Positions 903 through 21,221 of a DNA stretch of 34,051 nucleotides are shown piece by piece. This DNA is from a virus, in IMG/VR virus record IMGVR_UViG_3300049448_000589, positions 1-34,051 of that record. One strand, given 5' to 3'. The notes under the pieces were generated by a model, which searched no databases, had not been told where the DNA came from, and saw only the letters and a list, made by a program, of their open reading frames with translations. The translations under genes were made by a program, and so were the position numbers. Every line of letters begins with the position of its first letter. Position 1 is the first letter of the stretch.

Positions 903-3900
903 AAACAACTTCAGGGGACTCAGGACGTCAACGAACGTAAACGGGAAGCCCCGTGAGTCGTTGACGAACGGGTCGTCCACGCGCAAGTTCACGAGCAAGG
1001 ACCAGTTCGAGAACAACAATTCTCAGGACGGGAACGTCGTTTCCAACGCCGAGCACCTGGTCGATCATGCCTCCGGACTGAAGACGACTTCCATGGTCGT
1101 GGCCCAGGCCGCCCAGATCGGACTCTCCCAGCTCCAGGCCATGCGTGCCCAGCTCTCGGGAATCTCTCCTGACGCCAACGCCCAGGGAGTTAGGATTCCG
1201 GCCTTCGATGAACACGACCTGCAGGTCCAGCAGAACGCCTTCTCTAAGGAGATCGGGGCCGCGCTCGGCACCCACCCGGTCAATTCCATCCAGAGTCGGC
1301 TGGTGAGTCACACCGCAGACCTGGTCCAACACTCGGTCAACAACTTCCTCCCGATCTCCCTGAAGGGGCACGGAAAGTCCGTCAACACCTCCGTGGCCGA
1401 CATCGACCACATCACGGTGGAGATGCACCTGTACAAGGGAATCCTGGACCTGTTCTACTCGACGGTCCAGTTCACTGTTCCCCAGGGAGCAGTGGCCGAC
1501 GGGTCGCTCAAGGCCATCCGGATCTTCCGTGCGACCGTGGACAACCCTGACTTCTTCCAACGTCAGCCGGCCCGCTTGTCAGTGAACGCCATTGAGCGTC
1601 TCTGCGCCCATCCGCTGCGGAGCAAGCAGAAGAACCAGGACTACCTTGGGCAGTACGAGCGACAGCTTTCCGACATGTCGATCGACAACGCCCTGTCGGC
1701 GCTCAACCCGACCGACCCACTCCGGAACCTCCGAGTGCAGTCCCAGGACGAGCGCATCACCGCCACGGACCACCACTCCGCCGTCGACAAGGTGAGCTCG
1801 GAGGTGGGTGACGCCAACCTGGCTCCGTTCATCGATCCGACCAGTTTCAAGAACCTGGACCGTTCCGTGTCGCTCGACCTGAACGCCCTTCGGAACATGC
1901 AACACCAGAACCCGCACCTGGCAGCCACCGTCGCGGCTCCAGGAGTGCAGGTCGGTTCGGCGGCGATCATCGCCAACGCTTCAAAGCTCGGAAAGCAGGC
2001 GCTACGTCACAACAGGACCAACTTCGCCCAGGCCACTCGAAGCAACTTCATCATCGACAAGGCCAACAAGCTGGAGTTCAAGGAGATCGCTTTCATCTCT
2101 CCTGACAAGCTGTCGGGCCGGCTGATCGGTGACACCGTCGAGTACACTTTCGAAGACTACACGATCCACTACGCCAAGAGCTACCGTTACTACATCGTGA
2201 CGGTGGACAACAACATGGCGGAGAGCACGCGCTCGAAGATCGTGCAGATCAACGTGGACGGGCTCCGGATCCCGCAGTCGCCCTCCAAGGCGAGCGGGTA
2301 CATCCTCGGCAACGCCATCGCCATCAACATGTCGGTGGATGACCTCCTGGTCGAGAAGTTCGAGATCTATCGAAAGAACCTGACTGGGACTCCCAACACG
2401 AGCACCAAGAAGCTGACTGTCCACAACGGGTCCAAGGGCTACCACCTGAGTGAGGACACCCGTCCGCCGCTTCCGAACGGTTTCACCCAGATTGGTGAGG
2501 CTCTGAACAAGACGAACATCGGCGGCGTGTTCTACGACCGGGACACCAAGAAGGGTCACAAGTACGTGTACCGCATCTTCTCGGTGGACATCTTTGGAAA
2601 CAAGAGCGAGTCGCCCAAGGAGTTCCAGATCTTCTGGCCGGAAGACCAGAAGCACGTCGACCTGGCGACTCCACATATCCTGGCTGAGCTCGACGCATTC
2701 ACCGGTCAGATCAAGCTCACGTTCCAGTGTGAGGACACCAGAGTCACCCGGCTCATCCTCGCCCGTCGTGACACCAGCCTAGGCCAGTCGGCCTTCGTGC
2801 CTCCGGGACAGATCGAGCACATCAAGCTCGGCCTGACGGACCACCTGCGCGCCGGCCACCGTTTCGACGACGTCCGCTTCGGATACGATCCCGACCGGAA
2901 GAAGCTCTGGAACGGTCTCTTCGAGAGCAACGGGGAGCAGATCGTCTTCCAGGACGCCGCCGTCGTGACTGAGCACACGTACCAGTATCGGCTCCACGGC
3001 ATCGACAAGTTCGGAAACATGACCCCGAGCGCCATCTCACCGTCCCTCTTCGTAGCTGTTGCGGCCGCTGTCTACCAGCCGCAGAACCTGCAGGCGACCA
3101 TCGAGAACTCTGGTAGCCAGGTCACCGGCATCCAGGTCACGTGGCAGGACGGAAACATCGACATCGCCGCCGAGGACCAGGTCGGAAACCAGGAGCAGCT
3201 GCTGGAGACCGGCGTACGGACCCTCTTCCAGGTCAGCCGTCGTCACGTCGGAGATGACACCTGGTACGACTTCCCGTTGGTTTCGGAAAAGAGCTTCTTC
3301 GACGCGGCCGCACCTCCTGTGGCGAGCATCGTCTATCAGACTCCCGTGAATCTGATGACACCGCCGGGATTCGCAGAGCAGAGCTACCTCAGGCAGCTTG
3401 GCACCCAACAGTCGGCTTCGATCCCCAGCATGCTCGTTCCCGATCCGCAGTCCCCTCCGCAGATCGTGCAGAACGAGTCATACGCGTACCGCATCCAGGC
3501 GTTCCAGTCGGGAAACTTCGTTTCGAACTTCAGCAGCCCGATCGTCATCAACGCCTCGGTCCCGGTGAGCCAGGTCCTGAACTTCCGGATCAAGCCGACC
3601 GACAGCAAGTCCCGTCCGTTCTACGTGGCCCTGAACTGGGACACGTCAGTCGACTCGGGAGTCGTCGACCGGTGGGAGATCGAGCGTGCCGTCGTGAACA
3701 ACGTGGCCGCGGCCAAGTTCAACAACCTGAACGCCTCGGACTTCGCCAACCTGGAGTACAACCCGTTCAGGCAGGTCTACTCGGAGTCAAGCCGGTTCAG
3801 GGAGCGGACCGACGACGACGCTGCCCAGGCCGGATTCCTTGGAGGAGCAGGATCCCAGGGCCTTCTGTCGGGACAACACCACTACATTGATCAGAGCGTC

Positions 3901-4293
3901 GAGTTCGGGAACACCTACTTCTATCGGATCAGGTCTGTCTCGGTAGCCGGTGGACAGACTTCCGACTGGGTCTACCGCGCCGTCAAGGTGACCGATGATT
4001 CTTTCGAGAAGAAGGTCGATGTCATCCTGACTCCCAATGAGAAGAACCAACTGTCTACGACTCCCGCTCCCATGGTCTCGAAGCTCAATGTACTCGTACC
4101 TCTTGTGTCCGTGGCTCCGACCTCTCTGACCATTAGATCCTATTCCCCGCCGCCACCAATCGCGGTCCGTCCGCCTGTCCGTGCCATTCCCGCTCCGCCC
4201 CCGCCTGCGGCCCGGAAGTTCGCGCCACCACCGGCTCCGCCCGCTCTCGCGTCCAAGGTCTTCCTTTCGACGCTTAGCCGGAGGTTCTTCTAA
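889..4293 (+). CDS. Large virion protein with repeated fibronectin-III-like domains and proline-rich tail
   Basis: The 1134-residue protein starts at GTG 889, inside the end of the previous gene, with AAAGG just upstream. After an N-terminal part of about 390 residues come about five Ig/FN3-like beta modules, near residues 398-455, 458-583, 594-724, 728-889 and 891-1034. Each ends in the typical strand pattern, for example YRIFSVDIFGNKSESP, YRLHGIDKFGNMTPSA and FYRIRSVSVAGGQTSDW. Residues about 1086-1120 are proline-rich (PPPP, PAPPPP, PPPAPP). There is no signal peptide or membrane segment. FN3-like modules are common on phage tail and capsid surfaces, where they aid weak binding to cells or glycans. 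A fibre, baseplate or decoration role is inferred, not shown. It is followed directly, without a gap, by a second FN3-type gene. Confidence 0.8.
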   Translation: MAVSRNNFRGLRTSTNVNGKPRESLTNGSSTRKFTSKDQFENNNSQDGNVVSNAEHLVDHASGLKTTSMVVAQAAQIGLSQLQAMRAQLSGISPDANAQGVRIPAFDEHDLQVQQNAFSKEIGAALGTHPVNSIQSRLVSHTADLVQHSVNNFLPISLKGHGKSVNTSVADIDHITVEMHLYKGILDLFYSTVQFTVPQGAVADGSLKAIRIFRATVDNPDFFQRQPARLSVNAIERLCAHPLRSKQKNQDYLGQYERQLSDMSIDNALSALNPTDPLRNLRVQSQDERITATDHHSAVDKVSSEVGDANLAPFIDPTSFKNLDRSVSLDLNALRNMQHQNPHLAATVAAPGVQVGSAAIIANASKLGKQALRHNRTNFAQATRSNFIIDKANKLEFKEIAFISPDKLSGRLIGDTVEYTFEDYTIHYAKSYRYYIVTVDNNMAESTRSKIVQINVDGLRIPQSPSKASGYILGNAIAINMSVDDLLVEKFEIYRKNLTGTPNTSTKKLTVHNGSKGYHLSEDTRPPLPNGFTQIGEALNKTNIGGVFYDRDTKKGHKYVYRIFSVDIFGNKSESPKEFQIFWPEDQKHVDLATPHILAELDAFTGQIKLTFQCEDTRVTRLILARRDTSLGQSAFVPPGQIEHIKLGLTDHLRAGHRFDDVRFGYDPDRKKLWNGLFESNGEQIVFQDAAVVTEHTYQYRLHGIDKFGNMTPSAISPSLFVAVAAAVYQPQNLQATIENSGSQVTGIQVTWQDGNIDIAAEDQVGNQEQLLETGVRTLFQVSRRHVGDDTWYDFPLVSEKSFFDAAAPPVASIVYQTPVNLMTPPGFAEQSYLRQLGTQQSASIPSMLVPDPQSPPQIVQNESYAYRIQAFQSGNFVSNFSSPIVINASVPVSQVLNFRIKPTDSKSRPFYVALNWDTSVDSGVVDRWEIERAVVNNVAAAKFNNLNASDFANLEYNPFRQVYSESSRFRERTDDDAAQAGFLGGAGSQGLLSGQHHYIDQSVEFGNTYFYRIRSVSVAGGQTSDWVYRAVKVTDDSFEKKVDVILTPNEKNQLSTTPAPMVSKLNVLVPLVSVAPTSLTIRSYSPPPPIAVRPPVRAIPAPPPPAARKFAPPPAPPALASKVFLSTLSRRFF

Positions 4294-6576
4294 ATGATCA
4301 ACCTTGGAGGAGGTTCGAGGGGAGTCGTCGTTCCGCCACCGACCACGGTCCGGACCACTGTTGCTCCGCGCCCGGTGGCTTCGCCGCCGTCTCATGCCGT
4401 CATCGTCACGGCCCCGCCCGTGAACCACGCGGTCCTCATCCAGCCGCCGGTCATCCCTCCCAACCTCACGGCCAACCAGAAGACCGTCTGGGACTTCGCC
4501 GCCGTGATCGGGACCCCTCCGTCCTCCATAGGGCAGGATTACCTGGACCAGTGTAACAGGGTCGCAGAGCTCCTCGGAGTCCCTTCGGCGACTGCCCAAA
4601 AGATCCTGTCGATCGCGGCCATCTCTCAGTACCACACGGTCCAGCCGGCCGTCACGGTCTCTCGGGCGGTCGCGCCCCCGCCGGGCCTGTCCTTCCCGTA
4701 CATCAATGTGACGGCTCCGGCCTACTCGTTGGCCAGTTCTACCGACGTGAACGACACGGTCGCCATCCGGAACGCCGCCCTGCAGGCCCGGAACAACGTC
4801 TTCGACTTCATCAACAGGGTGAGCCAATTCGTCTCCCAGGCGTTCAACCAAGGGCTGGAGCCTCCGGACAACCCGTTCGTGGTCATTTCGAACATGCAGG
4901 CGGCTCGTGAGGCTCTCACCAAGAAGATCGGGAACTCTGGCCTGGGGCTGAGCGTCACTTCGACGGATGCCGACACGCTTGTCTTCAACATCGGGGCCTA
5001 CGTCTCGCTCCTGACCGCCCAGTCCCAGGGAAAGCTGGACCTCACGAAGGTCACCAACGTGGCCGCCCAGATCAACTCGTTCACGCTCTCGATGGACGGG
5101 TACGGCTCGGGCGGCAATCCGGCCACGGACCTGATGCGGTTCCTCCCGTCGGCCGACGAGATTCGAGCCCAGAAGGACCTCGAGCTGCTCTCGGCCTTCG
5201 ACTTCAGGAAGCGTCAGCCCAAGGTCGTCTTCACGGCGGACTTCCAGCCCGGAGACGAGCTCCAGGGCATGGTCATCGGTTGGAAGAAGATCCCGGACGC
5301 CAGCGGATACATCTTGAAGCGTCGTGGGATATTCGACCAGACCGAGAAGTCCATCCAGGTGAGCAACGTTGACCTGCAAACGTCCATGGACCACCTGCGG
5401 GACTACCTGAAGGCGCACATCCTGACCTTCTACGACACCATCGACGACACCCAGATCTGGGCGTACCTGGACAACTCCTGCTCGCCGGACCAGTACTACC
5501 TCTATACGGTGCAGGCGTACCAGATCCAGAACGACGCCAAGGACCAGCTCTTCCAGGTGTCGACCAACCCGCAGACGTTGTCCTCTCCGGCCCGCGCCAA
5601 GATCCAGTCCAGCATGCGGCAGTCGGCAGACTCTTACTTCGGCGGCGGAGCGACGTCCGACGACATCAACCCGTGGCCGTTCATCTCGCAACAGATCTAC
5701 GGCAACGACCAGTTCGACTGGATCCTGGCGGCAGTCAACGGTCGGGCCTCGGTCAACAGGAACGACAACAACCAGGACACCCGGCGGTTCTCGTACCTCG
5801 GTGCCCGTCTGTCCCACCTCCTGGAGTTCATGGACCGTGGGCTCTTCGTGGTTCCCAAGAACGTAAACGATGTGACCAAGGCCGTCACCGAGAGCGTGAA
5901 CAACTTTGGTGTAAGCCAGACGATCGCCGAGATCCTCCATGAGACCGGTATCCTCTACTATTTTGAGGGGACGGAACAGCCGAACCCGGCGGGACTGAAC
6001 CGCGCAGGAACGCTCCATGTCGGCGCCAGCCCGCTGCTCAGCGCCATCATCGCCACGGTCGACCCCGAGACGGCCACCATGGACGTCAGGACCCTGGGAT
6101 CCAACCTTCCGGCGCTCCTCCACAACTACAGCACGAACCCGTCTGTCGGCGCCGGTGGGCTTCGGCTGGGAAGCACGGCCGGAAACCAGAACGTTCACGC
6201 CACCCCGCAGGAGATCAACGTCCCCGATCCGAGTGTCACCAATGACACGGTCACGCAGGGAGATGTACAGTACCTGAACCAGCTGCCTCCGACCCAGAAC
6301 GGTGTGATCGACCTGACGACGTACGGCGGTCTCAGTGACCTGGTCCGGACGATCAGGTTGTTCGCAGATGAAGGTCCGAACCGTGGTGGCGGAGACACCA
6401 TCGCGCAAGGCGTCTACAAGCCCGCTCCCCTGGCGGAGAGGGTCTATGTTCCGCCTCCGCCGCCCTCGACGGTCTACGTTCCGCCGTCCCGTGTGTCGGG
6501 AATCCCAGTGGCGCCGCCAAGCAGGGTCACTGTGGGTCCACCGCCTCCACGGCCGCTCGGGAAGTTGATAAGATAA
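4294..6576 (+). CDS. Virion protein with proline-rich ends and a central FN3-like domain
   Basis: The 760-residue protein begins at ATG 4294, directly after the TAA of the previous gene. A strong SD (GGAGG, 4280-4284) lies in that gene's last codons. Residues about 13-56 are proline-rich (VVVPPP, VASPPS), and so are about 708-756 (YVPPPPPSTVYVPP, VGPPPPRP). The middle holds a helical region rich in Ala and Asn, then an FN3-like module near 309-435 (MVIGWKKIPDASGYILKRR to YYLYTVQAYQIQN). It has no cysteine cluster or membrane segment. It lies between two other large FN3-type proteins, which suggests one structure built from all three. The exact role (fibre, whisker or baseplate) is unknown. 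Confidence 0.78.
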   Translation: MINLGGGSRGVVVPPPTTVRTTVAPRPVASPPSHAVIVTAPPVNHAVLIQPPVIPPNLTANQKTVWDFAAVIGTPPSSIGQDYLDQCNRVAELLGVPSATAQKILSIAAISQYHTVQPAVTVSRAVAPPPGLSFPYINVTAPAYSLASSTDVNDTVAIRNAALQARNNVFDFINRVSQFVSQAFNQGLEPPDNPFVVISNMQAAREALTKKIGNSGLGLSVTSTDADTLVFNIGAYVSLLTAQSQGKLDLTKVTNVAAQINSFTLSMDGYGSGGNPATDLMRFLPSADEIRAQKDLELLSAFDFRKRQPKVVFTADFQPGDELQGMVIGWKKIPDASGYILKRRGIFDQTEKSIQVSNVDLQTSMDHLRDYLKAHILTFYDTIDDTQIWAYLDNSCSPDQYYLYTVQAYQIQNDAKDQLFQVSTNPQTLSSPARAKIQSSMRQSADSYFGGGATSDDINPWPFISQQIYGNDQFDWILAAVNGRASVNRNDNNQDTRRFSYLGARLSHLLEFMDRGLFVVPKNVNDVTKAVTESVNNFGVSQTIAEILHETGILYYFEGTEQPNPAGLNRAGTLHVGASPLLSAIIATVDPETATMDVRTLGSNLPALLHNYSTNPSVGAGGLRLGSTAGNQNVHATPQEINVPDPSVTNDTVTQGDVQYLNQLPPTQNGVIDLTTYGGLSDLVRTIRLFADEGPNRGGGDTIAQGVYKPAPLAERVYVPPPPPSTVYVPPSRVSGIPVAPPSRVTVGPPPPRPLGKLIR

Positions 6577-6579
6577 GCC

Positions 6580-9039
6580 ATGGCCATCAAGATCTTTTCA
6601 GGACTCGGACTGTTCAGCCACCCCTTCGACATCGAGGGGCAGGCGTCGTCCGCTGTCATCGAAGGCAGCGCGCTCTTCGGGACTTCGAACGCGACCATCC
6701 TGGTCGATCACGTCGCCACGCCTGTGCTCGGAAACATGGGAATCCCGAGCATGATCGATCGGGTCTTCCCGTCCGTCCCAAGCCAGTACAGTGTCGTGGC
6801 TCCGCCGCTTCGCCGGCCGGCCCCGCTGTCTTCCAATCCGAACCAGATCGGACCTGGAGCCCCGTCGTTCATCACGGTCGTTCCCCAGGTCCAGCCTGAA
6901 CTGATCTCCATGGAGTCCGGTCAGGCCACCTTCGAGACAATCTTCCACGATTTCGACATCGAGGTCTTCCCGACCTACAACTACTGGGTCCCGGACGAAC
7001 AGACCAACGACACCCAGGCCGCGGGCGACCGCCACCTCGACGACATCCCCCGCTTCAACCGGATCGTGTGGAACCCGGCTCCTGACCTGGCGAAGCAGTA
7101 CGCTGTCAAGCCGGCGACCAACAAGCCGGTCGACAGGAAGCCCGTCCAGTTTGGCACGGAGATGCAGCGCCCCATCGCCGTCACGACCAAGGGCATCAAG
7201 TTTACCCCGCAGCACCTGAACGACTTCGCCCTCATCAAGCAGAGCCTGGCGAACGGCCACATCTCCCCCGGGACCGTCCACGCCGTGGTCGACATGCCGG
7301 GAAACACCTCGGGGATCGCCAATCCGGTCGTTTCCACGGAGCCCTATGCCTACCTGGACGAGGACACGTTCCTCCAGCACCCAGACTTCCAGGGTCTGTC
7401 CTTCGAGGAGCTGAAGTCCAACATCCACTCCCTCACGAACGGTGTCATGTACGCCGGCCGGGTGAACAACGAGGCCATCTCTGCCGGCAGCAGCGACGAC
7501 AAGGCGAACCTGTTCTCAGGGAAGTTCGCCATCGAGAAGCCGCCGACCCAGGGCGGGTTCATGTTCATCCAAGGCGTGCACGCGTCGAGCCCGCCGCTGG
7601 GATTCCGCGCCCGCACGGCTATCTCGGGAGAATCCCGGGCCATCGCCATGGATCCGATCCTCGAGCAGGTGCAGAAGATCCAGGCTCCCGAGATCCAGAT
7701 CCCGACGGACACCTCATCCCAGATCCGGGCGAAGTTCATCCTGCCCAGCCTCGGCGGACTCCTCCAGACTGAGAAGGTCAACGCCATGCAGACTCCGGAA
7801 CACGCGGAGAACGCCATGGCCCTTGCCCAGTTCCTCCCGAACCTCGAGGTCATGAACCACGCCGGCCTGCAGAACTCCCCCCGGCAGATCGAGATCCCGG
7901 GCTTCGCCTCGCCCCCGGGCCTCTCTCACATCGAGTACATCGGGTACGTCCTTGAGAAGTACGAGCGGAACCAGAGCGGCGCCTTCGTCCTGAAGGAGAC
8001 GATCGACCTCGACAGCATCGACTTCAATACGTACATCGACGCAAAGATCAAGTACGCCCAGGTCTACCGGTACCGCATCCGGGCGCTCCTCCGTTGGACC
8101 CGTCCGAGCTACATGGGCGTCATGGGACCGGAACCCACCCTTCTGGCCGGACACACCAGCCAGACGCAGGCCATCGCCCCGTACCGCAGCTCCTACTTCA
8201 ACGGGGAGTGGAGCAAGACGTGGGCCTACGGCATCGTCATGGACACGGTCCCGCCCTCTCCTCCGGACGAGCTGACGGTCCGCCCCGACTCTGCCAGGAA
8301 GCAGATCGTGGTGAACTTCAAGTTGCCCCTGAACCAGCAGCGGGACATCTACTACATGCGCCTCTTCAGGAAGCTCCAGGACCAGAACGGGGCGGACCTG
8401 ACGGGATGGGTGGAGATCGGAAGCAAGTGGGGCCCCGAGAACGTCCTCTACTACGACACGGACGTGGACTTCTTCCAGAAGAACCACATCCGGTACGTGT
8501 ACGCGGCCCAGACCTTCACCAGGCACAATGAGTACAGCCCACTCTCAGACCAACTGGCGACCCGCCTGAACCAGGACTACGTCACCTATGGTGAGCATGG
8601 GGTCGACTTCGTCAGTCAGGCTGGAGTGAAGCTGGAGCTTCATGGGGCGTTCGCCACCTACCCGTTCCGGAGGTTCTACACGGAGACGGTGGTCCCGAAC
8701 GACACGGCCTTCACTTTCGCGGGCAGAGAGGCCAACGGAAACATCGCCCTGGACGATTCCCAGTACTTCGTACGTCTGGAGTCTCTGGACACGGGGGAGC
8801 AGAAGACCTTCCCCCTCAAGCTGGTCTACAACAACCAGAAGACCCGGGTAGACAACCAGAAGGTGGCGATCGTGGTCCCGGGAGTCAAGGCCCCGACAAA
8901 GACGCCCCAGCCGGTCGGAAAGAACCCTGCGCCACCGCCGGTCTTCCGGGATTGGGCACCGAAGACCGTCCTTCCGAGGACGGCCACGGCAGTGAAGGCT
9001 TCCCCGAAGAAGGTCTTTATGCCCCAGGGTATCAAGTAG
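6580..9039 (+). CDS. Third large FN3-like virion protein
   Basis: The 819-residue protein starts at ATG 6580, three bases after the preceding stop; the SD is weak (GGGAAG). At least two FN3-like modules are visible. One lies near residues 447-520 (IEYIGYVLEKYER to YRYRIRALLRW), the other near 557-667 (PPSPPDELTVRP to YVYAAQTFTRHNEYSPLSD). The PPSPP entry and the YxYxxxxF exit are standard for FN3 domains. Residues about 768-805 are rich in Pro, Lys and Ala, as in the two preceding proteins. No enzyme motif was seen. It probably assembles with the two upstream FN3 proteins on the virion surface; that is inferred from shared architecture and adjacency. Confidence 0.78.
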   Translation: MAIKIFSGLGLFSHPFDIEGQASSAVIEGSALFGTSNATILVDHVATPVLGNMGIPSMIDRVFPSVPSQYSVVAPPLRRPAPLSSNPNQIGPGAPSFITVVPQVQPELISMESGQATFETIFHDFDIEVFPTYNYWVPDEQTNDTQAAGDRHLDDIPRFNRIVWNPAPDLAKQYAVKPATNKPVDRKPVQFGTEMQRPIAVTTKGIKFTPQHLNDFALIKQSLANGHISPGTVHAVVDMPGNTSGIANPVVSTEPYAYLDEDTFLQHPDFQGLSFEELKSNIHSLTNGVMYAGRVNNEAISAGSSDDKANLFSGKFAIEKPPTQGGFMFIQGVHASSPPLGFRARTAISGESRAIAMDPILEQVQKIQAPEIQIPTDTSSQIRAKFILPSLGGLLQTEKVNAMQTPEHAENAMALAQFLPNLEVMNHAGLQNSPRQIEIPGFASPPGLSHIEYIGYVLEKYERNQSGAFVLKETIDLDSIDFNTYIDAKIKYAQVYRYRIRALLRWTRPSYMGVMGPEPTLLAGHTSQTQAIAPYRSSYFNGEWSKTWAYGIVMDTVPPSPPDELTVRPDSARKQIVVNFKLPLNQQRDIYYMRLFRKLQDQNGADLTGWVEIGSKWGPENVLYYDTDVDFFQKNHIRYVYAAQTFTRHNEYSPLSDQLATRLNQDYVTYGEHGVDFVSQAGVKLELHGAFATYPFRRFYTETVVPNDTAFTFAGREANGNIALDDSQYFVRLESLDTGEQKTFPLKLVYNNQKTRVDNQKVAIVVPGVKAPTKTPQPVGKNPAPPPVFRDWAPKTVLPRTATAVKASPKKVFMPQGIK

Positions 9040-10822: not shown

Positions 10823-10840
10823 CTCGGGAGGGCTCCCGAG
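10823..10840 (+). promoter_or_regulatory. Hairpin enclosing the SD and touching the GTG start of the next gene
   Basis: CTCGGGAG (10823-10830) and CTCCCGAG (10833-10840) are exact inverted repeats. Allowing a GGGC loop, seven base pairs form. The SD, GGGAGG (10826-10831), lies in the 5' arm and loop. The last base of the 3' arm is the G of the GTG start. Folding would hide the ribosome site of the LamG-domain gene. There is no T-run, so it is not an intrinsic terminator. Translational control or RNA processing is inferred. Confidence 0.5.
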
Positions 10841-12669
10841 TGAGCGTCTACTTCAAGTTCGAAGAGAAGGACATCCTTTGGGCGGTGATCACCACCACCC
10901 CGAGGATCGTCCTTGCCTCCGGTTCGGCAGGTTGGCACGGGAACGTCGGTCCGTCCAGCTCGCTGAGCCTGTACGAAGGAGTGCGCGCTCGTACTGACGT
11001 CGGTCCCCTCGCCGCATCTGGCCTCAACCTCTTCCCCATCGATCCGGTCGACACCAACTCCATCGACCGGACCATCTTCGTCTCCGGCAGCTACCCGAGC
11101 ACCGGATCGGTCCACTTCGTCAAGGCCCACAATCAGGACGTCAGCGGGATCGCCGGTGCCGCAGACTTCCTGATCACCCAGGACGACTGGTACGAGGAGC
11201 ACTTCAACCCGGTCGCCAACCTCTTCGACTACTACTCTACAGTCAACAGCGAGTACTTCACGGGGTCCTACGACTTCTACTCCCTGTTCTTCTGGCAGAA
11301 CCTCCCGCACAGCGGTTCCTACGTCAGCTTCCAGGGCCAGCTCCTTCCCACTGTCAGCTCGAGCTTCACCCTGGAAGTCCAGGCGAAGCCGATGCAGGTG
11401 ACCGGAACCGCGGACTTCGTCCTGCAGGCGCAGAAGGGTCGCTTCAAGTTCTACATCACCGGCTCCACCGGCCAGCTGGCCTTTACGGATGGGGCGACCA
11501 TCCTTACCTCCTCCGTGGCTTTGCAGCGGGGTGTATGGGCGGACTGCCTGTTCGTGGCCAACGGGTCCTCGGCGTCCTTCTACATCAACACCGGCAGCGC
11601 AGGTACGTACGCCTATACGGGCACGCTCGCGGTTCCTCTGACAGCGTCGGGGTTCCTCACGGTGGGTTCCGAGATCATCAACAGCTCGTCGATCAACGGC
11701 ATCGGCACCGCCTCCTTCACGGCATCGAACCTCATCCCGTTCAACTCCTACTTCGGGTACATGTACGACTCGAGGATCTGGAACCGGGCCCTCTCTGTCG
11801 GAGCGATCTCTGGCACCTGGAACCAGGTGAACACCACTTCCGGATCGGACCCGACCTTCGTCCACTACGCCCGATTCAATGACGGGCCCAAGGGACATGC
11901 CCATCCGTACGTCCAGGGATCTGGAGCGTTCGACTACGGCAATGGGGCGAGCTCTCTGCATGGGGACTTCCACAACTTCAACAACACCCTGCCCATTGCT
12001 CCCACCTGGCAGCCGGTGGACAACCCCAACGCCATCGGGACCTTGACCAGGATCAACGACAGGGTGGACTTTTTCAGGATCGTCCACGTTCCGTCCATGT
12101 TCTACGGCAGGCAGATCGCCACCGGCTCGGTGTACATGGTCTGCAATGCCTTTATGAACAAGGGCATCCAGCGCGTGATCCAGGACGACGGACACGGCCG
12201 CCTGTACGTTTCCGGCTCCATGTCTCGGCAGGTCTCCGGGGAGAACTTCTCTGGCCTGAAGTGGAACAAGGTCGGCAACGTGTTCTACAACGAGGGCCTG
12301 ATCGTCATCACGGATCCCGCCTTCGCCGACTTCGGGGACATCAACCAGGACGCCAGTCCGGCGTTCCCCGACACCCTGCAGATCGCCTTCTCTGGCCAGG
12401 AGAAGATCACTACCAAGGTCTTCCAGTGCCGGGTCGGTGCAGGGCAGGCGAACGGGTCCAACAACCCGACCTTCAGCTCCCTGAATCTGGACCCGAAGAG
12501 CCAGTTCTACAACAAGCGCATCGTGAAGAACTCTCCCCTCACGACTTGGATCTCCGCTGTAGGAATCTACAACGAGGACCACAAGCTCGTCGCCGTCGCC
12601 AAGCTCGCCTCTCCCATCCGCAAGCGCGAAAAGGACAAGCTCCTCATTCGTTTGCGTATGGACTTTTAG
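10840..12669 (+). CDS. Virion protein with LamG-like domain and C-terminal region shared with its neighbour
   Basis: The 609-residue protein starts at GTG 10840, whose SD sits inside a hairpin. Residues about 167-324 form a LamG/concanavalin-A-like jelly roll. The pattern FTLEVQAKP, then GRFKFYITGSTGQLAFTDG, then WADCLFVANGSSASFYIN and finally GYMYDSRIWNRALS is typical of the LamG_3 type. Such domains often bind glycans or decorate virion surfaces. Residues about 405-609 match the protein encoded just upstream, including the NPTF and VGIYNEDHKLVAVAKL landmarks and the final RLRMDF. It can be read as the upstream protein with a different N-terminus and an inserted LamG domain. A host-contact or fibre role is likely but inferred. 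Confidence 0.78.
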   Translation: MSVYFKFEEKDILWAVITTTPRIVLASGSAGWHGNVGPSSSLSLYEGVRARTDVGPLAASGLNLFPIDPVDTNSIDRTIFVSGSYPSTGSVHFVKAHNQDVSGIAGAADFLITQDDWYEEHFNPVANLFDYYSTVNSEYFTGSYDFYSLFFWQNLPHSGSYVSFQGQLLPTVSSSFTLEVQAKPMQVTGTADFVLQAQKGRFKFYITGSTGQLAFTDGATILTSSVALQRGVWADCLFVANGSSASFYINTGSAGTYAYTGTLAVPLTASGFLTVGSEIINSSSINGIGTASFTASNLIPFNSYFGYMYDSRIWNRALSVGAISGTWNQVNTTSGSDPTFVHYARFNDGPKGHAHPYVQGSGAFDYGNGASSLHGDFHNFNNTLPIAPTWQPVDNPNAIGTLTRINDRVDFFRIVHVPSMFYGRQIATGSVYMVCNAFMNKGIQRVIQDDGHGRLYVSGSMSRQVSGENFSGLKWNKVGNVFYNEGLIVITDPAFADFGDINQDASPAFPDTLQIAFSGQEKITTKVFQCRVGAGQANGSNNPTFSSLNLDPKSQFYNKRIVKNSPLTTWISAVGIYNEDHKLVAVAKLASPIRKREKDKLLIRLRMDF

Positions 12670-12684
12670 ACCAACAGAGACTCC

Positions 12685-12690
12685 TACTTA
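12685..12690 (+). promoter_or_regulatory. TACTTA element before the resolvase gene
   Basis: The 26-nt gap between 12669 and 12696 contains CCTACTTATC, a relative of the TATTTAGA elements elsewhere. It ends only 5 nt before the GTG start, and no SD is visible there. If it is a promoter -10, the message would be leaderless. It could instead be chance. Confidence 0.2.
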
Positions 12691-12695
12691 TCCCC

Positions 12696-13283
12696 GTGAT
12701 ATTCGGGTGGGATGTGTCTACAGCCATCGTCGGGTTTGCCGCGTTCACCAACGACGGCAAATACGTCGCGTCTCGTTACTGCGACCTGCGCAAGGCGGAC
12801 GATGTGTTCGAAGACAAGGCTTCCGTCCTGAACTACAAGGCGGATCGGGTCGCGGAGTTCGTCGAAGAGATGTTCGACAAGTACGCGGATCCAGACGGTG
12901 ACTGCCACTTCGTAGAAGACCGGCTCGCCGGATTCTCTGGCGGGGGATCGAACGCCGGCACCATCATGAGACTGGCCGCATTCAACGCCATGGTCTGCTG
13001 GATGATCTGGTGCAAGTGGCGAGGCTGTGGCCATATCGGCGCGATCCATCCTTCGACCGTGAAGGCCAACATGAAGACCCAGGGTCTTCTGGTTCCCAAG
13101 GGAGGGGACAAGAAGGAGATCACTCTGAAGTGGGTGATGTCCAAGGAGCCAGGCTTCCCGATCGTCAGGAACAAGAACGACAACCCGCAGCCCTACTGCT
13201 ACGACCAGGCAGACGCCTACATTACTGCAAGAGCAGGTTTCCTGCTCAGGAAGAAATTCTGCACCCATGCGCCAAGAAGTTAA
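12696..13283 (+). CDS. RuvC-like Holliday junction resolvase
   Basis: This 195-residue protein has the RNase H-like RuvC core. The first strand reads FGWDVSTAIVGFA with Asp6. The second acidic motif, HFVEDRLAGFSGGGSNAG, has Glu74. The last motif, YDQADAYITARAG, supplies Asp170 and Asp173. E. coli RuvC uses D7, E66, D138 and D141, so the full D-E-D-D set and the final three-residue spacing are kept. RuvC family members cut four-way DNA junctions symmetrically; a phage form would resolve branched DNA before packaging, as T4 endonuclease VII does. GTG 12696 is the only plausible start: the open frame continues upstream only as a shadow of the previous gene. No SD is visible. The 3' end overlaps the primase gene by 17 nt, implying coupled expression. 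Confidence 0.82.
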   Translation: MIFGWDVSTAIVGFAAFTNDGKYVASRYCDLRKADDVFEDKASVLNYKADRVAEFVEEMFDKYADPDGDCHFVEDRLAGFSGGGSNAGTIMRLAAFNAMVCWMIWCKWRGCGHIGAIHPSTVKANMKTQGLLVPKGGDKKEITLKWVMSKEPGFPIVRNKNDNPQPYCYDQADAYITARAGFLLRKKFCTHAPRS

Positions 13284-14232
13284 GCTCGCCGCCCTGAGGA
13301 CAGCCCTCCGTCAAGAGGGAGAAGTCAAGGGCGACGAGGCGGTCTTCTTTTGTCCGGACCCGCCGATCGGGCATGGGAACCCGCGCAACCGGCCCATGGG
13401 ACAGCTGAGTGTGAACCTGAAGACCGACTGGTTCAACTGCTGGAGCTGTGGGTTCAAGGGCCGGAACATCTACCGACTCCTGACGGTCCGCGGGAAGACC
13501 AAGGCTTCGCAGGAGTACTTGGAGGAGATCGAGGAAACCCGGCGCGGATCCAGCCGGTGTATGGTCATCGACGTACCGGAGAAGGTGTACGACCCTCCGG
13601 CTCTCCCACCTGAGTTCAAGTCCCTCTCCGTGACCTCCAGAAGCCCCTACTACAAGCAGGCCATGGCCTACATGGGGCGGAGGGGAATGGACCTCTCCGA
13701 TGTGCTCCGGTGGAAGTTGGGCTACTGTGAGAGCGGGGAGATGGCCGGACGCATCATCATCCCGAGCTTCGACGAATACGGCGAGCTGAACTTCTGCGTG
13801 GGCCGGACGTTCTACGAGCACGAGTCCTATCGCTACAAACCGTATCCGATGCACCAGTGCAAGGACATCGTTTGGAACGACTACCTAGTCGATTGGACCC
13901 AACCTGTGGTAATCACCGAGGGTCCGTTCGATGCCTTCGTCGCATCTGACAACGCGACGATCCTTCAAGGAACGATCCTGCCGGAGTCTCTCGTCCGGAA
14001 GATCGTCATCAGCGGTGTCGATGTCTACTTCGCCATGGACGCGGACGCCTTCAAGCGTCAGCTGCAGTACATAGAATTGTTCCTCTCATACGGAATCGGG
14101 TGTCGTTACATCAGCACCCGAGGGAAGAAGGACCTTGGAGCCATGACCAAGTCAGAATTTCAACAGCGTAAGCAGGCGGCGATGCTCGTCAGGAACGAGC
14201 TCGACATCCTGAAGATGAGGGTGTTGGCTTGA
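13267..14232 (+). CDS. DNA primase, DnaG/T4 gp61 type
   Basis: The 321-residue protein has a CHC2-type zinc site with Cys29, His36, Cys58 and Cys61 (FFCPDPPIGH and NCWSCGFKG). A TOPRIM catalytic domain follows, with Glu218 in VVITEGPFDAF and Asp258/Asp260 in YFAMDADAFK. These residues bind the metal ions needed for RNA primer synthesis. The length is near that of T4 gp61 (342 aa) and well below cellular DnaG; the C-terminal helicase-binding domain of DnaG appears absent. No replicative helicase gene is present in this window, so the partner must be elsewhere or come from the host. The ATG at 13267 lies inside the resolvase gene. The stop overlaps the TTG start of the next gene. Confidence 0.85.
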   Translation: MRQEVKLAALRTALRQEGEVKGDEAVFFCPDPPIGHGNPRNRPMGQLSVNLKTDWFNCWSCGFKGRNIYRLLTVRGKTKASQEYLEEIEETRRGSSRCMVIDVPEKVYDPPALPPEFKSLSVTSRSPYYKQAMAYMGRRGMDLSDVLRWKLGYCESGEMAGRIIIPSFDEYGELNFCVGRTFYEHESYRYKPYPMHQCKDIVWNDYLVDWTQPVVITEGPFDAFVASDNATILQGTILPESLVRKIVISGVDVYFAMDADAFKRQLQYIELFLSYGIGCRYISTRGKKDLGAMTKSEFQQRKQAAMLVRNELDILKMRVLA

Positions 14233-17200
14233 GAATTGCGCACATCAGCGACGTCCACATCAGAAACCTCAAGTTCCACAGCGACTACCGTCGTGTGTTC
14301 GAGAACTTGTACAAGAAGCTCGAGGAGCTCAAGCCTGACCTGGTGGTGAACACCGGAGACACTGCCCACACCAAGACACAGATCTCACCGGAGTTTGTGG
14401 AGATGACCTCGGAGCACATCCGTAGGGTCATCGAGATCGCGCCGTACCACATCATCCTTGGCAATCACGACCTCAACCTCATGAACTCCGACAGACAGGA
14501 CGCGATCACGCCGATCGTGGACTCCATCGGGAATGACCGCGTCCATCTCCACAAGAAGAGCGGGCTGGTCGAGGTGCAGCTGAAGTACGAGGACGACCCG
14601 TTCAACCTCTGGGTCTTCGGCATCGGGGACTCGGAGAATTATCCGACTCCCGAGCAGTGGGCAAAGTACAAGGAGCGCATCAACATCGGCCTGTTCCACG
14701 GGTCGATCTCTCGCTGCCTCACGGACTCGAACTGGCGGATGACGCACACGGAGCATGACCTGACCATCTTCGAGGGTCTGGATTACGTGCTCATGGGAGA
14801 CATCCACAAGCAGCAGTTCATGGACCAGGAGAAGCGGATCGGCTACGCCGGCTCGCTCGTCCAACAGAACTTCGGTGAGGACATCAACAAGGGCTTCCTG
14901 ATCTGGGACATCGAAGACAAGGTGACCCACAAGGTTTTCCCGGTCTTCCTCTCGGGATCCAGGAAGTTCTACACGGTCAAGCTGGACGAGGAGCTCAAGC
15001 TCCCCGAGATCGCTCTCGAAGAGAACGCCAGGATCCGTGTCAGCCCTCCCCGCCAGCTCACCCTGGTGGAACAGAAGGAGATCGAGCGCCAGGTCCGGAA
15101 GCGGTACAACCCGCACGACGTCATCACCCTGTCCGCCGGCCACGTGGCCATGGGGCAGACGCAGGTCGGCAAGAAGCTGATCGGTACGGAGAACCTGCGC
15201 CAGCTCGCGGTCCAGGAACGACTCCTCAGGGACTGGCTCAAGCGCCACGGTATCGGAGAGAAGCATACGGAGCTCTGCCTGGAGCTCAACCGGAAGTACC
15301 AGGTGTCTTTCGAACAGGAGGACGAGACGGCCAGGAACATCTCCTGGCGACTCAACGCCATCCTCTGGTCCAACATGTTCAACTACGGCGAGAACAACGT
15401 CGTGGACTTCAACAACATCAAGGGTCTGACGGGCATCTTCGCCGAGAACAGCAAGGGTAAGTCCTCCTTCATCGATGTCATCATGGAGGCGCTGTACGAC
15501 AAGGTCACGAAGAACATCGGCAAGAACCTCCACATGATCAATGACAACAAGGACGTCGCGTCCATGGTTGCCGACATCACGGCGGAGGACAAGAACTATA
15601 GCATCGAGCGCAAGATCGACCGGGTCAAGTACGGCAAGATGAAGTTCAACGGTGACGAGAAGGAGTGGGGCAAGACCTCCTGCGACTTCTATGTCACCGA
15701 TCCGCAGGGCGTGAAGGAGTCCCTGAACGCCGACCTGCGTCCGGGAACGGAGCGGAACATCCGCCAGCGGCTGGGCAACTTCGAAGACTTCATGCTCACC
15801 AGCCTGACCTCGCAGGTCAACACGATGGACATCATCTCCTGCAAGGAGACGGACCGGAAGAAGATCCTGTACAAGTTCCTCGATCTGGACATCTTCGAAC
15901 AGAAGGGGATGAAGGCCAAGGACGACTCCCGTGAGTGGTACACGAAGCTCGGCAACCTGGAAGACTCCGGGGTGCAGGAGCATGTCTCCAAGTACCGCTC
16001 ACGCGCAGCCACTATTTCAGGGGAGATCACGGTCCTGGAGGCGGAGCTGGAGCAGTCCAAGATCCAGCAGAAGGCCCTGAACGACCAGGTGATGTCGCTC
16101 AGCTCCCAAAAGATGAAGGTGGACCTACACCCCGAGACGCTCGCGCAGGCGCAGTCCAAGATCAAGGCGGCCGACGGGAGCATCACGCTTCTCCGAGAGA
16201 AGATCGGAAAGAAGCAGGCCGAGCTGCTGGACTACGAGACGAGGCTGTCCAAGATCTCGGAGGCCACGAACCTGGAGGAGCTCAAGGCCGCTTCGGATCG
16301 TTACCTGGACGTGCGGAACGAGCTGCAGCAGGTGGTCAGCCGTCGTGAGAAGGCGGAGCAGACCCTCCAGCTCCACAAGAAGAAGCTGCCGCTCCTGAAG
16401 GAAGTCCCGTGTGGGGACCAGTTCCCCGAGTGCAAGTTCCTAGTGGACGCCTTCAATTCTCAGAAGAAGATCCCCTCGTGGGAGGAAGAGCTCGGAATCA
16501 TCAAGTCGGAAGAAGCTACCCTCCGCTCTGAGCACCAGAAGGTAGAGCCGCTTTCCAAGCAGTACACAGAGGAGCTTCAGAAAATCCAGCGTCGCAGTTC
16601 TCTCGTGGCGGAACAGAAGAACGGGAAGCTCGAGCTGGAGAACTACCGACTGAAGGTGAAGGACTTCGAAGCGAAGAAGGTCAGCGCCCAGCTGGAGATC
16701 GACCGCGCAGCAGAGGCTCAAGCTTCTCTCCTCCGGAACCAGGAGCTGGACGAGCAGATCTCTCAGTTGGTCGAGGAGAAGGAGGCGGAGGAACGCTCCG
16801 GTTCCAAGATGCAGGGTCGGCTCAACGAGCTGAACCACGAGCGCGGCGGCCAGGAGACCATCCTGACGAAGCTGGAGGCGGAGCTCTCGATCCTGCAGGA
16901 CGTCAAGGACCGCTGCACGGCCTTCGAGCACTACGTCTCGGCCATGGGCAAGGACGGGATCGCGTACGACATCCTGACGCAGAAGCTGCCGGTCATCAAT
17001 GAGGAGATCAACAAGATCCTCGGGAACTCGGCGGACTTCGGAGTCGTCATCGAACACGATCCGGAAGAGCAGAGTATCCGTCTCTATCTCCAGTACGGGG
17101 AGTACAAGCCCCGCATCCTGGAACTTGGAGGCGGAGCGGAAAAGATGTTGGCCTCTGTGGCCATCAGGACCGCGCTGCTCTCGATCTCGAACCTGCCGAA

Positions 17201-17402
17201 GACCAACATGTTCATCATCGACGAGGGATTCGGGAAGCTCGACCCCAAGAATCTAGAGTCTGTAGGCCGTATGTTCGACTACCTAAGAACGGTATTCGAA
17301 CACGTCATCGTCATCAGCCACATCGAGTCGATGAAGGACATGGTCGACAACATCATCGAGATCACGACGGACGAGGAAGGTTACTCGCACATCGAGGTCT
17401 GA
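14229..17402 (+). CDS. Fused SbcD/Mre11 nuclease and SbcC/Rad50 ATPase (T4 gp47-gp46 equivalent)
   Basis: One 1057-residue frame holds both halves of the Mre11-Rad50 complex. Residues 1 to about 350 are the calcineurin-like nuclease: D8/H10 (ISDVHIRN), D44 (TGDTAH), N79-H80-D81 (LGNHDLN), H157 (FHGSI) and D191/H193 (MGDIHKQ). From about 373 the Rad50 head begins, with a Walker A at 405-412 (AENSKGKS, Lys411). Long coiled coils cover roughly 580-900. The hook at the coil apex is C728-X6-C735 rather than the usual CXXC. The signature is ELGGGAEK (965-972) and the Walker B is FIIDEGFGKLD with D998/E999. The complex resects and processes DNA ends for recombination. In T4 and bacteria these are two genes, so the fusion is unusual. 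It starts at TTG, overlapping the primase TGA (TTGA). Confidence 0.9.
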   Translation: MRIAHISDVHIRNLKFHSDYRRVFENLYKKLEELKPDLVVNTGDTAHTKTQISPEFVEMTSEHIRRVIEIAPYHIILGNHDLNLMNSDRQDAITPIVDSIGNDRVHLHKKSGLVEVQLKYEDDPFNLWVFGIGDSENYPTPEQWAKYKERINIGLFHGSISRCLTDSNWRMTHTEHDLTIFEGLDYVLMGDIHKQQFMDQEKRIGYAGSLVQQNFGEDINKGFLIWDIEDKVTHKVFPVFLSGSRKFYTVKLDEELKLPEIALEENARIRVSPPRQLTLVEQKEIERQVRKRYNPHDVITLSAGHVAMGQTQVGKKLIGTENLRQLAVQERLLRDWLKRHGIGEKHTELCLELNRKYQVSFEQEDETARNISWRLNAILWSNMFNYGENNVVDFNNIKGLTGIFAENSKGKSSFIDVIMEALYDKVTKNIGKNLHMINDNKDVASMVADITAEDKNYSIERKIDRVKYGKMKFNGDEKEWGKTSCDFYVTDPQGVKESLNADLRPGTERNIRQRLGNFEDFMLTSLTSQVNTMDIISCKETDRKKILYKFLDLDIFEQKGMKAKDDSREWYTKLGNLEDSGVQEHVSKYRSRAATISGEITVLEAELEQSKIQQKALNDQVMSLSSQKMKVDLHPETLAQAQSKIKAADGSITLLREKIGKKQAELLDYETRLSKISEATNLEELKAASDRYLDVRNELQQVVSRREKAEQTLQLHKKKLPLLKEVPCGDQFPECKFLVDAFNSQKKIPSWEEELGIIKSEEATLRSEHQKVEPLSKQYTEELQKIQRRSSLVAEQKNGKLELENYRLKVKDFEAKKVSAQLEIDRAAEAQASLLRNQELDEQISQLVEEKEAEERSGSKMQGRLNELNHERGGQETILTKLEAELSILQDVKDRCTAFEHYVSAMGKDGIAYDILTQKLPVINEEINKILGNSADFGVVIEHDPEEQSIRLYLQYGEYKPRILELGGGAEKMLASVAIRTALLSISNLPKTNMFIIDEGFGKLDPKNLESVGRMFDYLRTVFEHVIVISHIESMKDMVDNIIEITTDEEGYSHIEV

Positions 17403-17416
17403 AAGGGAATCGGAGA

Positions 17417-17698
17417 ATGTTTTGGATGCTGAAGAACTCATCGGGTAAGAAGGACGCGGTCCTTACCATGGCGGTCGTCGGATTCGCCTTCTGTCTCCTC
17501 AAGGTCCTCCTCGCGGGAGTGACCATCGCCATCGCCGGCAGGACGTTCGACTGCGGGACGATCGACGGGACGTCCATCGCGGCGATCCTGACGCCCACGC
17601 TCGGCGCGTACGTCGGTCGTCGCTACACCGACAGGAAGTACGGCGGGGACCCGGTCCCGGGAGTGGAGCCGGTCAAGCCCGACGACGGTCAGAAGTAG
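17417..17698 (+). CDS. Small two-helix membrane protein, possibly holin-like
   Basis: This 93-residue protein has a hydrophobic segment at about 14-40 (VLTMAVVGFAFCLLKVLLAG). A second, weaker one lies at about 50-68 (GTSIAAILTPTLGAYVGRR), followed by a charged, Pro-rich cytoplasm-like tail. The TPTLGAYVGRRYTDRK end resembles small membrane proteins common in large phages, which are often labelled hypothetical or holin. Size and two helices suit a holin, but no family is certain. It is followed without a gap by a membrane-anchored coiled-coil protein, so the pair could form a lysis unit. AAAGGG and GGAG lie upstream of the ATG. Confidence 0.6.
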   Translation: MFWMLKNSSGKKDAVLTMAVVGFAFCLLKVLLAGVTIAIAGRTFDCGTIDGTSIAAILTPTLGAYVGRRYTDRKYGGDPVPGVEPVKPDDGQK

Positions 17699-18535
17699 AT
17701 GGACGCCAGAGACAAGGTCCTCGTCACCCTCTTTGGGGTGCTGACGGCGGCCATCGTCGCCTTGGTGTTGGCCTTGGCCTGGCAGAACCATGTTCACCAG
17801 AAGGAAGTCACGGCCCTCCAGAACTCCCTGGCCGAGAAGGACAAGACCATCGAGGTCCAGAAGGGGCTCTACACCAAGCTGACGATCCAGACCCAGAACA
17901 TCCAGGGTACCCTCAACCAGAAGGACGTGCAGGTGAAGGAGCTGGAAGACCAGGTCCTGAAGCAAAAGCAGCAGCTCCTGGACGCCACCCAGCTGGTGCT
18001 CACCTGGAAGAAGAACTACGAGGGGCTGGCGAAGGCGACCCAGACTCCCGTTCCGATCGATCCCAAGAACCCGCCCACAAATCCCATCGAGATCGCCAAG
18101 GGTCGTGAGAAGGTGGACTTCCACGAGGACTTCGGCTACATCAAGGTGGATGGTTGGACACTCACCAATCCGCCCCAGGCATGGGTGCGCCTGACACAGG
18201 GGAGGCCCCTCAAGCTCACCCTGGCGCTATCCCAGGACAGTGACAAGGCCTGGCATACCTACGCCACCTCTTCCGAAGACAACATCGGGATCGACATCCA
18301 GGTCACGTCTGTCAACCCGTACGTCCTGCAGCCGCATTGGTACGAACACATCGGCGTGGCTGTCGATCTAGGAGCTGGATCGAACCAGTCCGGACTTGGT
18401 GCGCTCGTCGGACTCGGGGTCAACTACCAGTTCAAGCAGTTCACTCTCGGACCACACGTCTGGTTGGGCCTGAACAACGTCGTCGACAAGTACTACGGTC
18501 TCTCCTTCGAGTGGAGACCTTTCCAGAGGAACTGA
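17699..18535 (+). CDS. Membrane-anchored coiled-coil protein with beta-rich C-terminus, spanin-like candidate
   Basis: The 278-residue protein starts at ATG 17699, immediately after the previous TAG. Residues 7-29 form one N-terminal transmembrane helix with no lipobox. Residues about 35-110 are a predicted coiled coil (Gln/Lys/Glu/Leu-rich). A Pro-rich linker (PIDPKNPPTNP) follows. The last 80 residues alternate polar and hydrophobic residues in amphipathic strands (GVAVDLGAG, LVGLGVNYQF, GPHVWLGLN, YYGLSFEWRPF), with an aromatic-rich end as in outer-membrane beta proteins. An inner-membrane anchor, periplasmic coil and outer-membrane-like end together would suit a spanin that joins the two membranes at lysis. 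This is inference from layout; a structural or envelope protein is the alternative. Confidence 0.6.
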   Translation: MDARDKVLVTLFGVLTAAIVALVLALAWQNHVHQKEVTALQNSLAEKDKTIEVQKGLYTKLTIQTQNIQGTLNQKDVQVKELEDQVLKQKQQLLDATQLVLTWKKNYEGLAKATQTPVPIDPKNPPTNPIEIAKGREKVDFHEDFGYIKVDGWTLTNPPQAWVRLTQGRPLKLTLALSQDSDKAWHTYATSSEDNIGIDIQVTSVNPYVLQPHWYEHIGVAVDLGAGSNQSGLGALVGLGVNYQFKQFTLGPHVWLGLNNVVDKYYGLSFEWRPFQRN

Positions 18536-19544: not shown

Positions 19545-21221
19545 TTGGCGACCAAGTCGACAATCAGGGATGAGATCATCCGCTGCGGGCGGGATCCAGT
19601 CTACTTCATCAAGAAGTACGTCCGGATCCAGCACCCCGTTCGCGGACTGATCCCGTTTGCCCTGTTCGACTACCAGGAAGAGCTGATCCGGGACTACCTC
19701 AAGAACCGGTTCAACGTCATCCTGAAGGCTCGTCAGCTCGGCATCTCCGAAGTCACCGCCGCCTACGCCCTCTGGCTCATCCTTTTCCATCGCGACAAGA
19801 ACGTCGTCGTCATGGCCTCCAAGGACGAGACCGCCAAGAACATCGTCCGCAAGGTCCGTACCGCCTTCAAGAAGCTCCCCAAGTGGCTTGTCCTCGCAGA
19901 CCAGATCTCGGACAACGTCAAGTCGATCGAACTCACGAACGGTTCTCGAATCCACTCCATTGCGACCTCTGGCGACGCCGGCCGATCTGAAGCCGTCTCG
20001 CTGATGATCGTCGACGAAGCGGCCTTCATTCCGGGCTTCGACGATCTGTGGACCGGTATCTACCCGGTCGTCCAGGCGGGCGGTCGTGCCATCATCCTGT
20101 CGACCCCGAACGGCGTCGGCAACAAGTACCACCAGCTCTACACGGACGCCGAGACCGGCGAGAACGACTTCAACCCGACCCGTCTCATGTGGTGGCGGCA
20201 CCCGGAACACGTCGCCGACCTCGAGGACGACCCTCTCCGTCCCGGCTTCAAGACCTCTTCCTGGTTCAGGAAGGAAGTCAAGTCGGCGAACATGGGTCCC
20301 CGAGAAGTGGCCCAGGAGCTCGAGTGCAACTTCAACGCCTCGGGTGACACCGTCATCACGGGCGAGCGTCTCGAAGAGATCGAGAAGGGAATCCTCCCGC
20401 CCGTCAGCATGGAGCTGGAGGACCGGGCCCTTCACGTCTGGTGGCCGTACGACGCGGGCAACACCTACCTGATCACGGCCGACGTCGCCCGCGGCGACGG
20501 ACGGGACTATTCGGCCGCTCATATCTTCGAGCTCAGGAACATGAGCCAGGTGGCGGAATACTACGCCAAGGTTCCTCCTGACCAGTTCGCCAAGAGCCTC
20601 TGCAAGATGGGCGAGACCTATGGCAACGCCATGCTGGTGATCGAGAACAACCAGGTCGGTCTGGCCTGCCTGGAACACGTCCGCCTGGCATGCTACCCCA
20701 ACGTGTACTACAGCCGCCGCGGCGATCAGAAGCCCGGTGAGCCGGTGAACACCCTGTTCGGTGTACACGATCCTGACCTCATCCCGGGGTTCACCACCTC
20801 CCAGCGCACCCGCCCGCTCATCTGCAACAAGCTGGAGGAATACATCCGCACCCGGAGCATGATCATCCGGAGCAGGCGCTTCCTCCAGGAGCTCCGCACG
20901 TTCATCTGGAACAACGGTCGCCCTGAGGCCATGAAGGGCTACAACGACGACTTGGTGATGTCCGGGGCCATCGCGGCCTGGGTAAGGGATACCGTCATGG
21001 GTCCCAGCTTCGCCACCCAAGAGGTGAACAAGAAGCTGATGAACGCCATGAGCAAGACCACGACACTGAACTCTGACATTCCGGGAGCCAACAAGGATCC
21101 AAAGATCGCACGTCAGCAGGCCCTGGGAATCTTCGGCGGTGGACAGACAGACCCGCGTAAGATGAAGATCACCCTGCCGAATGGGATCGTCGAAGACTAT
21201 AGCTGGATTTTGAAGGGATAA
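19545..21221 (+). CDS. Terminase large subunit (gp17-like packaging ATPase-nuclease)
   Basis: The 558-residue protein has both terminase domains. In the ATPase, a deviant Walker A reads KARQLGIS (61-68), with the lysine at the front instead of before the final Ser/Thr. The Walker B is LMIVDEAAF with D157/E158, and a coupling STPNG motif follows. The RNase H-like nuclease has D313 (TADVARGDGRDYSA), E367 (VIENNQVG) and D468/D469 (GYNDDLVMSG). It pumps DNA into the prohead through the portal and cuts the concatemer. Its length is close to T4 gp17 (610 aa), and the match extends over IPGFDDLWTGIYPVVQAGGR. The start is TTG 19545 behind CGGAG. The portal gene begins 3 nt after its stop. Confidence 0.93.
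   Translation: MATKSTIRDEIIRCGRDPVYFIKKYVRIQHPVRGLIPFALFDYQEELIRDYLKNRFNVILKARQLGISEVTAAYALWLILFHRDKNVVVMASKDETAKNIVRKVRTAFKKLPKWLVLADQISDNVKSIELTNGSRIHSIATSGDAGRSEAVSLMIVDEAAFIPGFDDLWTGIYPVVQAGGRAIILSTPNGVGNKYHQLYTDAETGENDFNPTRLMWWRHPEHVADLEDDPLRPGFKTSSWFRKEVKSANMGPREVAQELECNFNASGDTVITGERLEEIEKGILPPVSMELEDRALHVWWPYDAGNTYLITADVARGDGRDYSAAHIFELRNMSQVAEYYAKVPPDQFAKSLCKMGETYGNAMLVIENNQVGLACLEHVRLACYPNVYYSRRGDQKPGEPVNTLFGVHDPDLIPGFTTSQRTRPLICNKLEEYIRTRSMIIRSRRFLQELRTFIWNNGRPEAMKGYNDDLVMSGAIAAWVRDTVMGPSFATQEVNKKLMNAMSKTTTLNSDIPGANKDPKIARQQALGIFGGGQTDPRKMKITLPNGIVEDYSWILKG

Follow-up and report, generated by a model that had tools for sequence, protein, structure and literature searches.

A gene for a predicted single-chain Mre11–Rad50 (SbcDC) complex in a T4-type phage contig

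The window (the whole stretch of DNA analysed, 34,051 nucleotides of IMG/VR record IMGVR_UViG_3300049448_000589) contains an uninterrupted frame of 1057 codons with zero internal stops that holds an Mre11/SbcD nuclease and a Rad50/SbcC ATPase, both complete (Table 1). Its TTG start codon overlaps the stop of the upstream primase-like gene (TTGA), an arrangement also present in two relatives (L003 and L007). Pfam Metallophos (calcineurin-like phosphoesterase) matches residues 1–194 (E 1.6e-13), SMC_N (RecF/RecN/SMC) matches residues 755–1053 (E 4.3e-8, under the curated cut-off), and PHROG 77 (SbcC-like) matches residues 304–1055 (E 6.4e-43); in PDB sequence searches the N-terminal part matches SbcD/Mre11 and the C-terminal part Rad50. 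The ORF reading, the Pfam, PHROG and PDB matches, and the structural model described below agree, upholding the claim of a preliminary description that nuclease and ATPase are fused in a single 1057-residue frame.

The window also encodes a T4-type terminase, a portal, a prohead protease and a major head protein, and the nearest named relatives are T4-like phages; as judged from its sequence, the window is a 34 kb fragment of a T4-type (T4-superfamily) myovirus. Two small genes downstream of the fusion (17417–17698 and 17699–18535) have, by eye, membrane-like segments; L003, L007 and L006 each carry an equivalent of the latter, of much the same length, after the fusion gene. Upstream of the primase-like gene, the C-terminus (DQADAYITARAGF) of an ORF at 12672–13283 resembles, by eye, a RuvC-like resolvase; this ORF had no match in Pfam or PHROG and no convincing match in the PDB. 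A large gene at 10840–12669 encodes a lectin domain of the concanavalin A type (Laminin_G_3, E 1.2e-11), and its product is probably a tail fibre or host-binding protein.

Table 1. Features of the fused gene and marker genes in the window
Feature	Position	Strand	Basis
Primase-like gene, conserved neighbour directly upstream of the fusion	13267..14232	+	PHROG 47 DNA primase, E 1.3e-29
Fused SbcD–SbcC (Mre11–Rad50) gene, 1057 aa, TTG start	14229..17402	+	ORF, Pfam, PHROG and PDB sequence matches
Mre11/SbcD phosphoesterase and capping region, residues 1–300	14229..15128	+	Pfam Metallophos, AlphaFold, Foldseek to SbcD/Mre11
Helix-loop-helix, residues 326–364	15204..15320	+	Two AlphaFold-predicted helices
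Linker of ~7 residues (365–371), Mre11 part to Rad50 part	15321..15341	+	AlphaFold model
Rad50 N-lobe (residues 372–560), including Walker A and the Q-loop	15342..15908	+	Model, alignment of relatives
Coiled coil with CGDQFPEC apex at 728–735, residues about 561–905	15909..16943	+	Model, alignment
Rad50 C-lobe (residues 906–1057), bearing the LGGGAEK signature, Walker B, D-loop and His switch	16944..17399	+	Pfam, PDB, alignment
T4-type terminase large subunit (phage-type marker, not part of the machine)	19545..21221	+	PHROG 2, E 7.4e-51

In an AlphaFold model of the fused protein (mean pLDDT 81, pTM 0.49), the phosphoesterase and capping region extend to approximately residue 300 and are followed by a weakly predicted loop (304–317) and two helices (326–339 and 344–364), positioned like the helix-loop-helix of Mre11; some seven residues then lead to the first Rad50 strand at residue 372. 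A capping region, helix-loop-helix and short linker ahead of Rad50 are a feature of fusion proteins, and all are present in the model. The two strands of the coil (554–725 and 736–906) are each approximately 170 residues long, with the CGDQFPEC apex between them. Because the pTM is 0.49, the model leaves the placement of the nuclease relative to the ATPase head unfixed. In the T. maritima complex, where Mre11 is a separate protein, its helix-loop-helix attaches to the Rad50 coil at the root (PMC3175470) and, by analogy, residues 326–364 may have the corresponding role; the segment spanning residues 345–390 is nearly constant in length across 188 distinct relatives. Foldseek aligned the model to both Mre11 (SbcD/Mre11) and Rad50 structures. 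In its viral library the best matches were giant-virus proteins of 969–1389 aa, with full-length matches of similar or greater length in the giant viruses Tupanvirus and Harvfovirus and, among phages, full-length matches in Tenacibaculum phage pT24 and Listeria phage LMTA-57.

The nuclease motifs comprise D8, H10, D44, N79-H80-D81, H157, D191 and H193; those of the ATPase are Walker A (AENSKGKS, 405–412), Q529, the signature LGGGAEK (966–972), Walker B (D998/E999), the D-loop (D1005) and H1031. Every phosphoesterase and Rad50 motif named in the preliminary description is therefore present, and nearly all catalytic-motif residues are invariant over 188 distinct relatives. Two further details that it had flagged as notable prove to be ordinary in the family: the CX6C hook (C728/C735) is one of two hook types among the fusion relatives, and most of the distinct relatives (111 of 188) share the Ala of Walker A. 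Its remark that LGGGAEK, in place of LSGGE, is unusual was well founded, since position 968 is Ser in 183 of the 188 and Gly in the window, where the canonical Ser signature is absent. Among the matches listed, Gly is restricted to the window, L002/L003, L015 and the diverged L094. On the aligned sequences, Gly968 is the sole unusual detail of the window protein within its family; it departs from the usual Rad50 motif, and the Ser signature is not defining for this kind of fusion.

The search for other single-chain SbcD–SbcC proteins that had been suggested for this locus was made by profile scans of IMG/VR, which yielded 580, 572 and 584 confirmed relatives in overlapping sets, each scan ending at 600 candidate stretches. 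All domains lie in a single frame in 221 of the 250 sources with a match (the window is counted among them, as are some duplicate retrievals of a single contig), corresponding to at least 188 distinct full-length proteins, nearly all from IMG/VR phage contigs; a further 20 are fused but run off the contig end ahead of the Rad50 C-lobe. The remaining nine are unfused. Eight of these run off the contig end and one, in a Bacteroidales MAG (RUG12352; L095, 5971–6822), is a closed stand-alone Mre11, the only unfused case among the matches listed with both ends inside its contig. When the Mre11 half and the Rad50 half were each used alone as a query for split relatives, none was found in viral contigs beyond contig-end cuts, in a search that ended at 600 candidate stretches, retained the best 80 and could be escaped by distant split forms. 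A plasmid search returned no fusion that aligned over the greater part of the query. Among environmental phages, fusion is common. In one relative (L011; LR756508.1, a 484 kb phage) the fused gene (2944–7166) is interrupted close to the GDIHK motif and lies in two frames, the break being an inserted Cys-rich ORF (3665–4579) that resembles a homing endonuclease; an Rfam search for a known intron found none at the break.

The preliminary description held the fusion to be remarkable because Mre11 and Rad50 are normally separate genes, a view that is out of date. Yoshida, Claverie and Ogata reported in 2011 that Mimivirus R555 and a further twelve proteins are such fusions, among them those of a Bacillus phage and plasmids, gave a structural argument that it is compatible with the complex, and described fusions as sporadic in viruses and abundant in aquatic viromes, with the aquatic homologues inferred to be viral and some probably phage (PMC3175470). 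The window protein belongs to these fusions, and the fusion as such is not new. The possibility raised beforehand, that fusion is widespread and has been characterised before, holds in that the fused form is common (at least 188 distinct proteins) and was described in 2011, but the papers searched contained neither fused-protein biochemistry nor any later characterisation of phage Mre11/Rad50 fusions. R555 and the other 2011 fusions share with the window protein the domain order, the capping region and helix-loop-helix, the short linker and the single chain (PMC3175470); relative to R555, the window protein comes from a T4-type phage, is encoded next to a primase-like gene, has Gly for Ser in the signature, and has a coil shorter than the length reported for R555, as compared by description. 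Microcystis phage Mel-JY01 (WWT39521.1; PP395634.1) likewise encodes a full-length fusion, 27–28% identical to the window protein, with a primase-like gene just upstream, but its signature is SGMEK and its apex differs; it is annotated just as ‘AAA domain containing protein’.

T4 itself is of the same phage type and has the same pair of activities as predicted for the window protein, but in two genes (gp47 and gp46) with small ORFs between them; Moorella phage MTATph1 also has SbcD-like and SbcC-like genes separately, and the Rad50 genes of S-CAM3, ACP17 and T4, all of the same broad phage group, are of ordinary unfused length. In a tree of Rad50 heads, which excludes Mimivirus R555 and Bacillus phage 0305phi8-36, the family of the window forms one clade (support 95/94 for the full set of rows and 100/100 once three on long branches are dropped), and the Rad50 half of the window, part of one gene and not two, falls outside the T4 gp46 clade. 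Xanthomonas phage XacN1 also has a one-gene fusion, of 1099 aa (ORF305), but in the tree its Rad50 half sits among the split Rad50s of T4 type, which suggests that this fusion arose separately, with long branches as a caveat. Constraining all fusions together was rejected (AU p 0.009 and 0.025). Separate events fit the 2011 proposal that such fusions arose repeatedly (PMC3175470). In this isolated phage, ORF305 (L252, 3515–6814) is annotated just as ‘recombination endonuclease subunit’.

A primase-like ORF lies upstream of the fusion in 224 of 228 eligible loci, at most 100 bases away in 169. A RecA-family gene (RecA/UvsX) is present in 11 of 15 large relatives; none was found in the other four, which may be fragments, nor was a RecA or polymerase found within the 34 kb window, itself a fragment. 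The fused protein is the sole metallophosphoesterase in 12 of these 15 records, and a second full Rad50, sought in all 15, was found in none. Since most large relatives have RecA/UvsX and no second full Rad50, the fusion most likely substitutes for T4 gp46/gp47 in recombination-dependent replication, a role that the context supports without proving. Taken with the domain content and the model, we consider it highly probable that the gene encodes a single-chain SbcDC (Mre11–Rad50) complex of a T4-superfamily myovirus, doing the job of T4 gp47 and gp46 together. It is reasonable to suppose that fusion imposes 1:1 stoichiometry and places each nuclease at its own ATPase head. Two chains would pair via their ATPase heads and nuclease domains into the M2R2 form typical of the complex, in which nuclease and ATPase would be held at 1:1; the access of DNA ends to the nuclease would be gated by the binding and hydrolysis of ATP, and the nuclease would resect those ends to 3′ tails onto which the phage RecA/UvsX would load for recombination-dependent replication. 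T4 gp46/gp47 are annotated as required for host-DNA degradation as well as recombination, and the fusion might instead be a host-DNA degradation or anti-defence nuclease; the fixed place behind the primase gene and the presence of RecA/UvsX in most large relatives favour replication and recombination and make this improbable as the sole function, although the two roles are compatible and not exclusive.

The signature bears on how the proposed complex would work. Gly968 could weaken ATP-driven head engagement in the clade of the window. A stronger proposal, that the exchange blocks productive head closure, leaving an impaired or regulatory ATPase in what would be mainly an ATP-independent endonuclease or end-tether, draws on the near-universal Ser of the relatives and the narrow distribution of Gly. 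We regard this as quite unlikely, since Walker A, Walker B, the Q-loop, the D-loop and H1031 are all preserved, and not one amino acid of the C-lobe differs between the window and L003 at a dS of 0.38, which indicates tight constraint.

The same pair of sequences bears on the joint, for which dN/dS is 0.08 (residues 301–371) against 0.11 overall. The intact joint is common to L002 and L003, which are 93% identical to the window, come from two metagenome samples and are 3 bases apart from one another, and it is also intact in L007 (52% identity), L013, L014 and many others spanning 31–52%. The check for a hidden stop or start at the junction, proposed at the outset, thus found it intact in independent assemblies. 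No evidence was found that a sequencing error merged adjacent genes near the junction; the idea is conceivable in that sbcD and sbcC adjoin in bacteria, but this artefact is ruled out, to near certainty, by the intact joint in two other samples and in at least 188 distinct proteins with identities down to about 31%, and by the dN/dS across it. The fusion is real, and the joint is under strongly purifying selection.

A broader and more tentative proposal, which we hold possible but rather doubtful, is that the single-chain form is the fixed and sole Mre11–Rad50 machine of a large uncultured branch of the T4 superfamily, coupled to the primase gene, and that the signature lacking Ser in the clade of the window implies that the covalently locked complex runs through a changed ATP cycle. 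The nuclease half is mostly missed in reference annotations, as in Mel-JY01, and the single-chain complex offers a handy construct for structural study of how Rad50 gates the Mre11 nuclease. The abundant aquatic fusions of 2011 are now tied to a concrete group of T4-type phages, in which the fused complex appears to be the fixed state.
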